This document shows, one piece after another, positions 8,321 through 56,306 of a stretch of DNA of 64,000 nucleotides. The notes under the pieces were generated by a model. It worked only from the letters and a program-made list of their open reading frames with translations, had not been told where the DNA came from and did not search any database. The stretch is from the NCBI GenBank assembly GCA_937959115.1, contig CALGAW010000026.1:1-64000 (forward strand). Direction: 5' to 3'. The position numbers and the translations under genes were made by a program. The stretch comes from an uncultured Saprospiraceae bacterium. Lineage in GTDB: Bacteria > Bacteroidota > Bacteroidia > Chitinophagales > Saprospiraceae. The number at the start of each line of letters is the position of its first letter. Positions within the stretch are counted from its first letter, which is position 1.

Positions 8321-8538
8321 TTATACTTGGATTTTATGTAAATTTAGGTTGTTTTTTGAAAATTCAATTTGTAATTGTTGATTTTTTCGAAAGTATTCAA
8401 AAATAAAGGTGATTTTCAAAGAACAAATATTGTAGTCAACCATCTAACCAAGAACAAAGAGAAGAAACATTAGTTTTAAATAATGTATTGATTAACAATA
8501 TTTTATCAAAGAAAAAAATCAAAATAGTACTCAACAAA

Positions 8539-8621
8539 ATGAGTCAAGCAAAACGCCAAAGAAGCGTAAGAGCTTTATAAGAAGGATTTTCAACCTTTTA
8601 CTCATCCTGATAATACTCCTT
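8539..8621 (+). other. Probable true N-terminus of tamB, out of frame by one base
   Basis: The tamB frame stays open upstream of its first standard start (GTG 8622) back to a TAA at 8493, but it contains no ATG, GTG or TTG there. It reads Lys/Arg-rich residues (KTPKKRKSFIRR) and then a strongly hydrophobic stretch, as expected for the signal anchor of TamB. An ATG at 8539 lies in the neighbouring frame and opens MSQAK before running to a stop at 8578. Adding one A to the AAAA run at 8550-8553 would join the two as MSQAKTPKKRKSFIRR. This points to a one-base deletion, either a sequencing error or a real lesion. Confidence 0.6.
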
Positions 8622-11600
8622 GTGTTATCTGCTTTGCTATTGAGTTATTTGATCCAAATTCCATCCATTCAAAATAAACTTGTCGATAGAACCACGAGCT
8701 GGCTTTCCAAGGAATTAAATACTAACGTTTCAATCGGTAAAGTCAATATCGATTTCTTTGATCAGTTAGACATCAGCAAGATATATATTGAGGACTTAAA
8801 CCAAGATACATTATTGGCTGCGGAGACCATCAAAGTCGATATTGCATTTTTCTCTTTTTTGAATAACAAACTACTGGTAGAGGACATTACCATTGATGAT
8901 GTTACCTTTAACTTAAACCGAAAAAAAGGAGAAGAGACGTATAATTTGCAATTTTTACTTGATTATTTCAAAACATCAAACAATGGGACCAAAAAGCAAA
9001 AACACTGGCTACTAGGTCTAGACCGTTTAAATTTAAGCAATCTTAGGTTTTTCAGTGATGACAAGCCATTAGGTAATAAACTTGATGTCCGCCTAGCTAC
9101 TGGCAGCTTTGTGTTTGACCAAATTGAACAAGATTCTATATACATATCCGCAGAATCTGCTATTCTTGATGGATTACGGGTAAACTTGGAAAAGCGTTCT
9201 CGGACAGCCGCTCAGACTACTTCTAAGGAAGCTGACAATACACCAGACTCACTCAAGAAAGTGCTACAATTTAAAGTAGCTGATGTCCAATTATCAAACT
9301 CTAAATTCATTTATAATCACAAGGAAAAACCGTATTCAGAATTGGATGGAATTGATTTTCAGCACTTGAGAGTAAATGGTATTCAATTCAAAATCAAACA
9401 GTTTGAATTTAAGGATGGCGATTTTACTGGTATTGTTAAATCGCTAAAGGCAAAAGAAAGTAAAAGTGGATTTGAGATTAAAAACCTTAAAGGAAACGCT
9501 TTTGTAAACAATAGAAAAATTCAAATTTACAATACTGAATTGGTAACACCTCAAAGTAGATTGGGCGATACTATTGTTTTAAACTACCGTCAATACTACG
9601 ATTTCTATGATTTTGTAAACAAGGTAAAGCTGGATGCTAAGTTTAATAATGCTGAAGTTAGTTTGAAGGATATTATTGCATTTGCTCCGCTATTGAACAA
9701 GCAAAAGATCATCAGTGAGAACGAAAACCAATTGATCCGACTCGATGGTACATTCAAGGGACAAGTCAACAAACTCAAGGGAAAGGACATTACCATTGCT
9801 GTAAATAATACGTTTTTGAAAGGGTCTTTCCGTACTAGAGATTTGACACTACCAGAACAAACATTCTTAGATGTGAAAGTATCTGAATTCGTGTCTAGTG
9901 TAGACGGGATTCAATCGTTTTTCAAGGGGATGAAGCTACCATCCAACTTCAAGAAGTTGGGAAATCTGAATTTTACCGGGAATTTCACAGGGTTCTACAA
10001 AGATTTTGTTGCTGATGGTAAGATGATGACTGACTTGGGACGCGTAAATTCTGATATTCAGATTAAACTAAATGATGGTTTGGAGCAAAGTGTCTACTCT
10101 GGAAGCCTGGAGGTGTTTGACTTCGATGTAGCCGAATGGGCAAGTAATCCTATTTTTGGAGATGCTAGTTTTAAAACCAAAATTAAAGGAAAAGGGATTA
10201 CAGAAAATACGGTAAATGCAAACTTAGATGCAGTCGTAAAGAGCTTTGAGTTTAAAGGTTACAACTACGAAAACGTAAGGCTTGATGGGCGGTTCGAGCA
10301 AAAGAAATTCGATGGTTTACTAAAGGTAGCTGAAAATAATCTAGATCTGATATTTGATGGAACCATTGATTTTAACGATAGTCTTCCAATTTTTGACTTT
10401 AAAGCAAACATCAATGATCTAAATCTGTATGCCTTAAACTTAATCAAACAAAAGGTGCAACTGAAAGGAGATGCAGCATTCAACTTTAAGGGAAACAACC
10501 TCGATAATTTTACGGGTATAGGATCAATCAATAAATTAAATGTGATAAAGGATGATAAATCGTATGAGGTGGATTCTGTCACATTAGAATCTTCGATTGA
10601 ATCTGAACGAAACAAGAAACTGGTACTTACTTCTGACATTCTTACTGCAAAAATAGAAGGTGATTTTGATATTATTCAATTACCTAACTCCATTGCCAAA
10701 TTTGTTGAAACCAATTATCCTGACTGGGCGAACAAGGCTAGTATTCAAAGCTTTATGTTTGTTGAAGATACGGTTTGGACAGCAGGCAGATACGACCTTG
10801 TAAGACGACCGATCACACCAAAAAACCAAGACTTTGCATTTGATGTGCATGTTAAAAAGACAAACAATCTAACAGAGCTTTTAGTTAAAGAGGTGAAAGA
10901 GATTTCAAATGCTCGGCTTGCTGGGACCTTCAATTCCCTAGCCAACGTCCTTGAGATTAATGGTACAATTCCCAAAATTATTGTCAAGAATATTAAGTTT
11001 GAAGACATCGTTTTGAAAACTAATTCCCTTCGGAATAACGCTACCTTAAAACTGGACATTGGTAATACAAGTATTTCAGAAAATTTTGTGCTGCCTCCAA
11101 TTGATTTTAACGGAGAAATTGCCAACGATACATTGAACTTTGGTGTGAATGTAGAAAACGTTGCCAATGTATTGAAAAACATTAATGTAAATGGAATATT
11201 GTTTCCTACTACTGAATATTTCCAGGCCTCGATTCTTCCCTCAGAACTTGCAATATTCAATAATGAATGGGATATTTCTGGTGATAATTATGTTCGTTTT
11301 GGCAAGCAATACATTCATACTCAAAATGTGGTTTTGAATCACAAAAATGAACGCATTGCCTTGAATAGTAAAGGGGATAAGGGATTATTTTTATCGCTAG
11401 ACAATATCGATATTCAACTGGTCAATGATTTGATTAATCTTAAAAAGGTAGATCTACAAGGCACGCTGTTTTCTACAGTGGAAGTAAAGGATATTTATAA
11501 ACTAGAAGATGTAGAATTAAAAGCAAAAATCAAGTCTCTAGTAATCAATGACAATCCTTATGGTATCGTTGATGTGCTTGCAACAAGTGATAATTTTAAT

Positions 11601-35322: not shown

Positions 35323-36639
35323 GTGAAAACTAAATCATTTAAAAATAATAAAGTAAACGTAGTCACACTCGGCTGCTCTAAGAACCTCGTCGATTCTGAG
35401 GTATTGATGATGCAATTGAAAGAAAATGACTATGATGTTGTACACGATGGTGGCATGAAAGACGATCCTAACATTGTGATTATCAACACTTGTGGCTTTA
35501 TCGAGCGCGCAAAGGAAGAATCAATCAATACCATTTTGGAATATGCAGAAGTACGAGCGAAAGGAGACATCGAAAAGCTCTATGTTACGGGCTGTCTCTC
35601 GCATCGATACAAGGACGACCTTGAAAAAGAAATCCCTGAAGTAGATGCCTATTTTGGTACGTTAGAACTCCCTGCTCTCCTAGAAAAATTGAATGCCGAT
35701 TACAAGCATGAGCTCCTAGGAGACAGAATCTTAAGCACACCGCCACACTATGCTTATCTCAAGATATCAGAAGGCTGCAATCGAACTTGTTCTTTTTGTG
35801 CCATTCCGCTAATGCGAGGAAAACATGTATCTAGATCAATAGAACAGCTAGTCGCTGAAGCAAAAAATCTAGCAAAAAATGGTGTAAAGGAGATCATGCT
35901 CATCGCCCAGGAACTAACCTACTATGGTCTTGATCTGTACAAGGAGCGCAAGCTAGCAGAATTGCTGAATGCACTTTGTACTGTTGAAGGTATTGAGTGG
36001 ATCAGATTGCACTACGCCTATCCAAGCAAATTTCCAAAAGAGATCTTTGAGGTGATGCGTGATCAGCCCAAAATCTGTAATTATCTAGATATCCCATTAC
36101 AGCATGCCAACAATGATGTGCTAAAGCGTATGCGCCGCCAAATCACTCAAGAGGAAACGGTTGAACTCATTGAATATGCAAGGAAGATGGTGCCTGATAT
36201 TGCTATCCGGACCACGCTTTTAGTTGGGTTTCCTAGAGAAACAGAGGAGGAGTTTGCTGATTTGTGTTCATTTGTAGAAAAGATGAAGTTTGAACGCGTG
36301 GGTGTATTCACATATTCTCATGAGGAAAATACACCAGCCGATGGCTTGCCAGACGACATTCCAGAACAGGTAAAGCAGGATCGTGCCGCTTCTATTATGG
36401 AATTACAGCAAGACACGTCACTGGCAAAGAATGAAGCAAAGGTAGGCCAAACACTGAAGGTCTTAATCGACCGTTGCGAAGGCGGTTATTTTGTTGGACG
36501 GACGGAATTTGATTCCCCAGAAGTAGACAACGAAGTACTTATTAAAACCGAAGGTAACTACCTAAGGGTTGGTGATTTTGCTACGATTCATATTACTTCT
36601 GCTAGTGATTATGACTTGTATGGAGACCCAGTAACCTAG
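35323..36639 (+). CDS. rimO: Ribosomal protein S12 methylthiotransferase RimO
   Basis: The 438-aa radical SAM enzyme adds a methylthio group to Asp88/89 of ribosomal protein S12. It has the N-terminal MTTase domain (VNVVTLGCSKNLVDSEVLM, INTCGFIERAKEES, VTGCLSHRY), giving the three auxiliary-cluster cysteines. The radical SAM motif is GCNRTCSFC in EGCNRTCSFCAIPLMRG, followed by a C-terminal TRAM domain. CSFCAIPLMRGKHVSR fits RimO better than MiaB. The start is a GTG. An ATG-less start so close to the previous stop suggests weak initiation. Confidence 0.95.
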   Translation: MKTKSFKNNKVNVVTLGCSKNLVDSEVLMMQLKENDYDVVHDGGMKDDPNIVIINTCGFIERAKEESINTILEYAEVRAKGDIEKLYVTGCLSHRYKDDLEKEIPEVDAYFGTLELPALLEKLNADYKHELLGDRILSTPPHYAYLKISEGCNRTCSFCAIPLMRGKHVSRSIEQLVAEAKNLAKNGVKEIMLIAQELTYYGLDLYKERKLAELLNALCTVEGIEWIRLHYAYPSKFPKEIFEVMRDQPKICNYLDIPLQHANNDVLKRMRRQITQEETVELIEYARKMVPDIAIRTTLLVGFPRETEEEFADLCSFVEKMKFERVGVFTYSHEENTPADGLPDDIPEQVKQDRAASIMELQQDTSLAKNEAKVGQTLKVLIDRCEGGYFVGRTEFDSPEVDNEVLIKTEGNYLRVGDFATIHITSASDYDLYGDPVT

Positions 36640-53927: not shown

Positions 53928-56306
53928 ATGTTACTAGCGCCTGAAGATGGTTATGAAAAGTTAGAGTTCGACAAATTGTTAGAACGATTATCCGAGCATT
54001 GCTTAGGACAACCAGCAAAAGATAAAATTCCAAACCTAACGATTCATACGGAACAGTTGATCATAAAAATACTGCTTCGAGAAACAAACGAATTTAAAAC
54101 AACGTTTGAAGAAAACCATACAATTCCACTTTATGAATATGAAGAAGTCTCAGAAGAATTTCGGTTCCTAGAAGTTGTCGATTATGTACTAGATGTGCAC
54201 CAACTCTTCAAAATCGCTAGATTGATATTGATGATTGGAGAATTGTATCAATTCTTCACTTCGGAGATGAAGGAAAAATATCCCAAACTCTTTGACATCA
54301 TAAGGCCTTACTCTTTTAATGAAGAATTGGTTCATGCCATTAATAAAGTGATTGATCCTGAAGGAAAGATAAAATCAGATGCCTCGCCTGAGCTCTTTCG
54401 AATCAGAAAACTACAAATGTCAAAGTTTAAAGAGTTGGACCGAGCCTTCAACAGAATTATCAAAGAGTACAAAAGCAAAGGTTGGCTTTCTGAAACCGTA
54501 GAAAGCTTCAGGAATGGTCGTCGCGTCCTTTCTGTCCCCTCCGAATTTAAAAGAAAGATACGAGGCATCATCCACGATGAATCAGCAACGGGAAAAACGA
54601 CATTCATCGAGCCAGAAGCCATCATTAACATCAACAATGACATATTCGATTTAGGGAATGAGGAAAAACGTGAAATCTATCGTATTCTTAAAGAACTGAG
54701 TGACCTCCTTCGTCCCTATCTCGGCCTCCTTCGCGAATATTATGCACTGATTATAAGGTTTGACATCATCCGTGCAAAAGCGCGATTTGCCTTGGAGATG
54801 GATGGTATTCTTCCTAAACTAAAGTCTGAACCATACATTTGAATTCAGCAAGGATATCATCCATTGCTGTTACTAAAAAACAAGGAAGAAGGAAAAAAGA
54901 CAGTCCCCTTTTCGCTCACGCTACTCAATAACAACCGTATTCTTGTGCTCAGTGGTCCCAATGCTGGTGGCAAGTCGATTTGCCTAAAGTCCCTTGGGTT
55001 ATTGCAGTTGATGATGCAATCCGGAATGCTGATTCCAGTCCATGAAACCACAGAAATGGGCGTTTTCGAACGACTGTTTATCGATTTTGGGGATCAACAA
55101 TCCTTGGAAGATGAGCTGAGTACATACAGTTCTAGGCTAAAAAACGCAAAATACTTCTTAGAGAACGCTACCGAAAAGACGCTATTGCTCATTGATGAAT
55201 TTGGCTCTGGTACCGACCCAAAAATCGGTGGTGCCATTGCAGAAGCCATGCTCAAAGAACTCAATCAGAAAAAGGTTTTCGGATTAGTCACCACACACTA
55301 CTCCAATTTAAAGATGTTCGCTTACAATCATAAAGGCATTGTGAACGGCTGTATGACCTTTGACAAGGACACACTCTCTCCAACCTATGAACTAACAATT
55401 GGGCGCCCTGGCAGCTCCTACGCCTACGAAATAGCAGAAAAAACAGGTCTTAGCAAGCAGTTATTAAACTATGCTAAGAACAAAACAGGCAAAAACGAAA
55501 AGGCAGTCGATCAATTACTAGTAGATCTCCAGAAAGAAAAACAGGAACTCACTGAAAAGCTTGAAGGTATTGAGAAGCATCAGAAAAACTTAGACCGACT
55601 TATCAAAAATTACAATCAGATGAGCGAAGATCTTAGTATCAGACGTAAGAAGTTACGCCTAGATATTAAGCAACAAGAACTTCAAGAAACCAGCCGTTCC
55701 AATAAAGAGATGGAACGGATTGTCAAGGAGTTAAAAGAAGAAAAGAATCTAGAGAAAGCGAAAGAAGCACTTGCCAACGCAAAATCAAAACGCAAGGAGC
55801 TAACGAACAATGTGGACAAGTTGCACGGTGAAGTGTTTACCAAGCAAATCATCAAAGAACCAATAAAAGAAGGAGATTTTGTACGCTTGCATACAGGTGG
55901 AGAGATCGCCATAGTAGAGTCGATCAACAAAAAGAAAGCAACTATCATTGTAAACAACCTGCGGATGACCGCCAAACTTAGTGATCTAGTGCACTCCAAA
56001 CCTCCAGTTACAGCACCAATAAAAGGTAAAATAACAACTGACACCCGAAGCGATCAGTCTAAATTTATCAATAAAATTGATCTTAGAGGTATGCGCAAGG
56101 AAGAAGCCTTAAAAACACTTGAGCTCTTTGTAGATGAGGCACTAATGGCCAACGGGTCGTCCCTAAAAATCGTTCATGGCAAGGGAGATGGTGTGCTTCG
56201 GAAGGCTGTAAAACAAAAACTTCGTGAATACTCAGCAGTCAGCTCCATCGCTCATGAACCAGCAGAGCTTGGCGGTGATGGTGTAACGATTGCAGAATTG
56301 ACTTAA
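53928..56306 (+). pseudogene. mutS2: mutS2 interrupted by one in-frame stop codon
   Basis: MutS2 is a mismatch-repair relative that suppresses recombination and rescues stalled ribosomes in some species. The reading frame opens at ATG 53928 with the N-terminal core (EDGYEKLEFDKLLERLSEHCLG, the GRRVLSVPSEFKRKIRGIIHDES clamp region), then meets TGA at 54840-54842 after EPYI. Beyond it the same frame continues with IQQGYHPLLLLKNK, the Walker A GPNAGGKS near 343-350, Walker B LLIDEFGSGTDP and a C-terminal Smr nuclease domain (IDLRGMRKEEALKTLELFVDEA; IVHGKGDG) to a stop at 56306. The total is 792 codons, normal for MutS2. No frame change is needed: this is a single nonsense codon or a base-call error. 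Confidence 0.9.

Follow-up and report, generated by a model that had tools for sequence, protein, structure and literature searches.

A single in-frame TGA in the otherwise constrained mutS2 gene of an uncultured Saprospiraceae bacterium

The mutS2 reading frame and its premature stop

The mutS2 gene of an uncultured Saprospiraceae bacterium is divided by one in-frame TGA codon, and we consider a young single-base nonsense allele of mutS2, probably causing loss of function, to be the best reading and a fairly likely one. The stop was observed in a gene that is present in single copy, it is absent from the relatives listed, and both halves of the gene are constrained. The favoured reading further takes it that the TGA is real, that termination at this codon would be efficient and that the gene would be dead. 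Recent nonsense pseudogenes of conserved bacterial genes carry a single stop, are intact and constrained over the remainder and are specific to one lineage, and mutS2 resembles them in all of these respects.

The gene was found in a stretch of 64,000 nucleotides (the window) from a draft genome of 6.38 Mb in 90 contigs, which is 96% complete. An earlier note on the window had described an in-frame TGA without a shift, and the sequence across the site (...CCA TAC ATT TGA ATT CAG CAA GGA TAT CAT CCA TTG...) bears this out. Besides this codon, the 792 codons of mutS2 contain no further stop and no frameshift, which supports the view that a single point change lies just before the ATPase domain of an otherwise intact gene. 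The features of the locus are listed in Table 1.

Table 1. Features of the mutS2 locus, in positions of the window.
Feature	Positions	Strand	Remarks
mutS2, whole frame	53928..56306	+	opens at ATG 53928, closed by a TAA whose last base is 56306
5′ part of mutS2 (core/lever and clamp region)	53928..54842	+	TIGR01069 match, 304 codons to the TGA
In-frame TGA	54840..54842	+	GGN (glycine) codon here in most close relatives
3′ part of mutS2: ATPase, KOW/SH3-like (MSSS), SMR	54843..56306	+	487 codons to the natural TAA
AAGGA, Shine-Dalgarno-like	54850..54854	+	9 nt 5′ of TTG 54864
TTG, in-principle restart for a 480-aa 3′ product	54864..54866	+	first in-frame ATG 56 codons past the stop

When the TGA is read through, the gene matches the NCBIfam mutS2 profile TIGR01069 with 765.8 bits, compared to a cut-off of 400. 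Positions 4-297 of the profile are covered by the 5′ part (246 bits) and positions 304-790 by the 3′ part (499 bits), and the profile is thus matched over its full length in one order, but not in one uninterrupted reading frame. MutS_V (ATPase), MSSS (SH3/KOW-like) and Smr all exceed their Pfam cut-offs and all lie in the 3′ part, while the 5′ part contains none of the three. The prediction that termination would remove the ATPase and SMR domains therefore holds, and the KOW-like domain is also located 3′ of the TGA. This is the sole mutS2 of the genome; a second copy was searched for, and the two remaining profile matches, both stop-free, reach only 75 and 36 bits.

The domain order is the same as in MutS2 of B. 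subtilis, for which PMC10897456 lists core/lever, clamp, ATPase, KOW and SMR domains. The same paper describes that KOW and SMR bring the protein to collided ribosomes and that Walker-motif mutants do not split disomes. The two halves in the window correspond to consecutive parts of the profile; in contrast to the B. subtilis gene, the frame is broken by the TGA between clamp/lever and ATPase. According to the mechanism we propose, the change to TGA would have hit a codon, probably for glycine, in the variable joint that connects these parts, and the allele would be either fixed in the sampled cells or a strain variant. Translation would halt after 304 residues and yield a fragment without ATPase, KOW-like and SMR domains. 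The cell would thus be deprived of MutS2; in Bacillus, the counterpart of this protein splits ribosomes that have collided.

Absence of the stop from listed relatives and age of the lesion

In order to place the stop among relatives, we surveyed 298 genomes of the family, that of the window included, of which 274 pass the mutS2 cut-off and 24 fall below it. Among the matches listed, 149 of 150 mutS2 rows contain no internal stop by an eye count, the exception being the window's own. The TGA is not a matter of chance, since 149 of the 150 matches listed are stop-free. The 24 genomes below the cut-off may represent losses, splits or contig breaks; one of them (G051) is 100% complete. In a separate search of 40 genomes, again including that of the window, the matched mutS2 stretch was free of stops in all 24 other family members, in one of which (G020) a contig end truncates the gene. 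In the genome collections searched, each species is represented by a single genome. A scan of genome collections added two relatives at a greater distance, with 57% and 51% identity; both are assemblies of Saprospiraceae and point to a lineage of this type for the bacterium. Judged by titles and the beginnings of abstracts, a premature-stop allele of mutS2 in Bacteroidota is not evident in the papers that a literature search listed.

The interrupted column is variable. In 31 aligned relatives (including L035 and L036) it is occupied by G in 14, E in 7, D, K, N and H in 2 each, and L and I in 1 each. The closest relatives have GGN codons at the position of the TGA, and the GGA form is one step from TGA; one base change therefore suffices to create the stop. 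The earlier note had called both halves fully conserved, which applies to the halves themselves but not to the interrupted residue. When each sequence was left out in turn, none of 41 conserved columns was altered before the stop and one of 108 after it. This single departure is a change from S to T that also occurs in two relatives, and the count of departures is as low for the window as for its nearest relatives. Identity to the nearest relative is 69% for the 5′ half and 74% for the 3′ half.

Since both halves are constrained, the lesion is very young, or not real. We simulated neutral change in the 3′ part and determined how probable it is that no second stop and not more than one departure of this kind arise; the probability is 0.18 for 1% substitutions per site, falls to 0.06 for 1.5% and to 0.01 for 2%. 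Under this model, more than about 1.5% neutral substitutions per site since inactivation are unlikely. No dN/dS ratio is given, because synonymous sites were saturated in all pairs tried.

Evidence against a young lesion comes from relative-rate tests with four outgroups, whose data overlap, so that the four results are not independent. In the 5′ half, changes on this branch compared to that of the nearest relative were raised with three of the four, numbering 37 v 17, 35 v 21 and 25 v 13, and came to 21 v 25 with the fourth; the chi-square values of the first three are 7.4, 3.5 and 3.8, and only the first passes 3.84. The corresponding counts for the 3′ half (40 v 28, 41 v 32, 29 v 39 and 32 v 33) are not significant in any case. 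Decay caused by this stop would not give such a pattern, in which the rate is faintly raised before the stop but not after it. That mutS2 is an old pseudogene is hardly credible, even though the stop itself and the faint excess in the 5′ half would fit: the gene has acquired neither a second stop nor a frameshift, only one of 149 conserved columns has changed, and the simulation disfavours neutral change beyond about 2%.

Sequence accuracy and the rival reading of a consensus error

The main rival of a nonsense allele is a one-base error in the consensus, introduced by sequencing, by polishing or by the base of a minority strain, in which case mutS2 of the organism would be intact. We regard this as a serious possibility, albeit a less probable one. 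It fits every observation equally well as a nonsense allele does, including the full constraint on both halves and the stop-free genes of the 24 other family members, and a draft of 90 contigs is the kind of assembly in which it may occur. If the TGA were an error, the long frames, with 114,737 codons in total, would include one such stop, and as 4.44% of substitutions create a stop, errors would occur at a rate of about 6.5e-5 per base, a level that a draft may reach. The absence of a further clear lesion from the 460 kb scanned, a result of limited sensitivity, speaks against an error, and so does the fact that the proposed second error is common to some relatives, as detailed below.

The 460 kb scanned comprise contig C25 as a whole, 80 kb of C36 and 84 kb of C26 including the window. 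A relaxed scan for stops within a continuing frame returned 12 places, one of which is the TGA of mutS2. In the other 11, the next ATG follows after 0-5 codons in 10 cases and after 21 codons in one, as it does between neighbouring genes; this assignment is based on the ATG distance. The stop scan is of limited sensitivity, given that the score of mutS2 barely exceeds zero: stricter thresholds missed mutS2 itself, and the relaxed scan also reported its TGA on request, irrespective of score. A scan for frameshifts over the same sequence yielded three places, tamB not being among them. Two are explained by alternative starts (TTG at C25 56423, GTG at window position 35323), and the third (C25 288035) is weak. 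Overall, neither scan revealed a second clear nonsense or frameshift lesion in the 460 kb, within its limited sensitivity, which argues against a generally poor consensus. Placing proteins from parts of three relatives' contigs on the window likewise gave a stop in mutS2 only, after rows judged by eye to be chance ORFs on the wrong strand or in the wrong frame had been set aside.

The earlier note had taken mutS2 together with a site in tamB as a possible sign of low sequence accuracy, a suggestion that neither the scans nor the tamB homologues support. In the tamB start region of the window (8496-8640), the frame is open from position 8496 and has no ATG, GTG or TTG before the N-terminal membrane helix; the sole start candidate near its beginning is an ATC at 8505. 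Near the beginning of their open frames, the homologues in two relatives (G002 and G005) have only ATC or ATT, and that in a third (G001) has TTG, ATT or ATC. We extended the comparison to 30 tamB-like loci of the family (L123-L152), the best-scoring of those from 59 matching genomes among 61 searched, that of the window included. An ATG precedes the helix or coincides with it in 24 of these 30 best-scoring loci; in L133 it is found at the helix only. The remaining six have no such ATG: L126 and L149 have an early TTG or GTG, and the tamB genes of the window, G002, G005 and G073 have only ATC or ATT in the first dozen codons. The missing start is thus common to some relatives and, therefore, not an error peculiar to this assembly. 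The sequences suggest that a non-AUG start (AUU or AUC) of tamB is common to several family members, and such a start is possibly regulated.

Reading of the TGA and consequences of a possible loss of MutS2

A further explanation assumes that the TGA is real and the gene nevertheless works, either by readthrough of UGA or as two cooperating proteins of 304 aa and, from TTG 54864, 480 aa. The constraint kept in both halves, the AAGGA 9 nt 5′ of the TTG and an interrupted column that accepts many residues would be in line with it. Programmed readthrough or a conserved split gene is at odds with the survey, because the stop is not conserved and was present in one of 150 rows among the matches listed, the window's own, the other 149 family rows being stop-free.

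The genome offers little that would support such a reading. An uninterrupted match to prfB (RF2) scores 481 bits. The 460 kb contain 199 frames that span at least 250 codons; TAA closes 116 of them, TAG 58 and TGA 25, mutS2 included, and TGA as a sense codon is disfavoured by the presence of RF2 and by this use of TGA as a stop. The RF1 frame is intact (359 aa); an apparent TAG in an RF1-like match falls just 5′ of the RF1 ATG. Selenocysteine at the TGA is disfavoured as well, as none of eight SelB profile matches and none of eight tRNA-Sec matches in the genome exceeds its cut-off, the best of the latter reaching 46.1 bits compared to 47 at a place where ARAGORN calls a tRNA-Ser. A UCA anticodon, which would read UGA, was not found in any of 52 tRNA matches in the genome, leaving no candidate for a suppressor tRNA; the first look for tRNAs scored 150 of 464 candidates, so that a divergent tRNA could be missed. 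ARAGORN typed 50 of the 52; of the other two, one at a contig edge was assigned to Asp by eye, and the short anticodon loop of the second, which is Lys-like, does not read UGA. Since RF2 is intact, Sec machinery does not surpass the cut-offs and no UGA-reading tRNA was seen among the 52 matches, readthrough or a split gene is unlikely, and we consider a working gene with a genuine TGA improbable overall.

As a side observation, the Lys-like tRNA with the shortened anticodon loop, which ARAGORN could not type, belongs to a cluster of 15 tRNA genes at the end of contig C74 (L118 4580-7956), inside which the only mechanical ORFs are two of 84 aa. Most of its anticodons recur in other parts of the genome; Ile was encountered in this cluster alone. 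The cluster adjoins a gene for a protein of 1053 aa (L118 548-3709, minus strand) without a Pfam match at 0.001.

The two-protein version, in which a 304-aa core/lever-clamp protein and a 480-aa ATPase-KOW-SMR protein would be translated separately, is more improbable still. It would entail coupling of termination and re-initiation 21 nt apart and a gene split that has only just arisen, and the product starting at TTG 54864 would lack the whole core/lever-clamp part. The AAGGA is formed largly by a glycine codon that is common in relatives (glycine in 12 of the 14 shown), and its position before the TTG is, from the sequence, probably fortuitous. Taken together, an ordinary mutation of very recent origin, or an error in one letter of the sequence, is the most probable cause of the TGA, and not a novel mode of gene reading.

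A nonsense allele raises the question of whether MutS2 is dispensable. According to PMC11633108, a survey of 1,956 genomes of the FCB group recorded mutS2 in 1,781 and rqcH in 404. A search of the genome of the window for the NFACT_N domain of RqcH gave no match. Within the order but outside the family, a match of mutS2 length is lacking in 10 of 15 genomes, and in 7 of the 12 with a completeness of 90% or more; MutS2 thus looks dispensable in the order. Each of the 40 genomes searched, that of the window included, contains one or more SMR-domain matches. The genomes of the order without a match of mutS2 length also still show SMR-domain matches.

Besides MutS2, the genome of the window encodes another SMR protein (L002 904-1701, contig C56), which is intact, is 265 aa long and carries DLH and GKG motifs. 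We liken it to the KOW-SMR clade of Bacteroidetes, the third SMR clade of PMC10897456. It differs from MutS2 in being the product of a separate gene on another contig and in having no MutS ATPase, and an N-terminal KOW domain is putative. This protein is a possible partial stand-in for MutS2. The absences of mutS2 in the order, together with the retained second SMR protein, thus make a loss of mutS2 plausible. Within the family, such a loss would be unusual, because the 24 other members among the 40 genomes searched keep a stop-free gene.

Overall, nothing points to new biology, and the case is ordinary either way. Should the TGA be an error, its significance is confined to that of a caution for automatic annotation. 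If it is real, it would mean that a ribosome-rescue ATPase has newly been lost in a family whose other members mostly keep mutS2, in a genome that has no NFACT_N (RqcH) match and retains a second SMR protein. The allele would then provide a small natural experiment on the dispensability of MutS2 in Bacteroidota.
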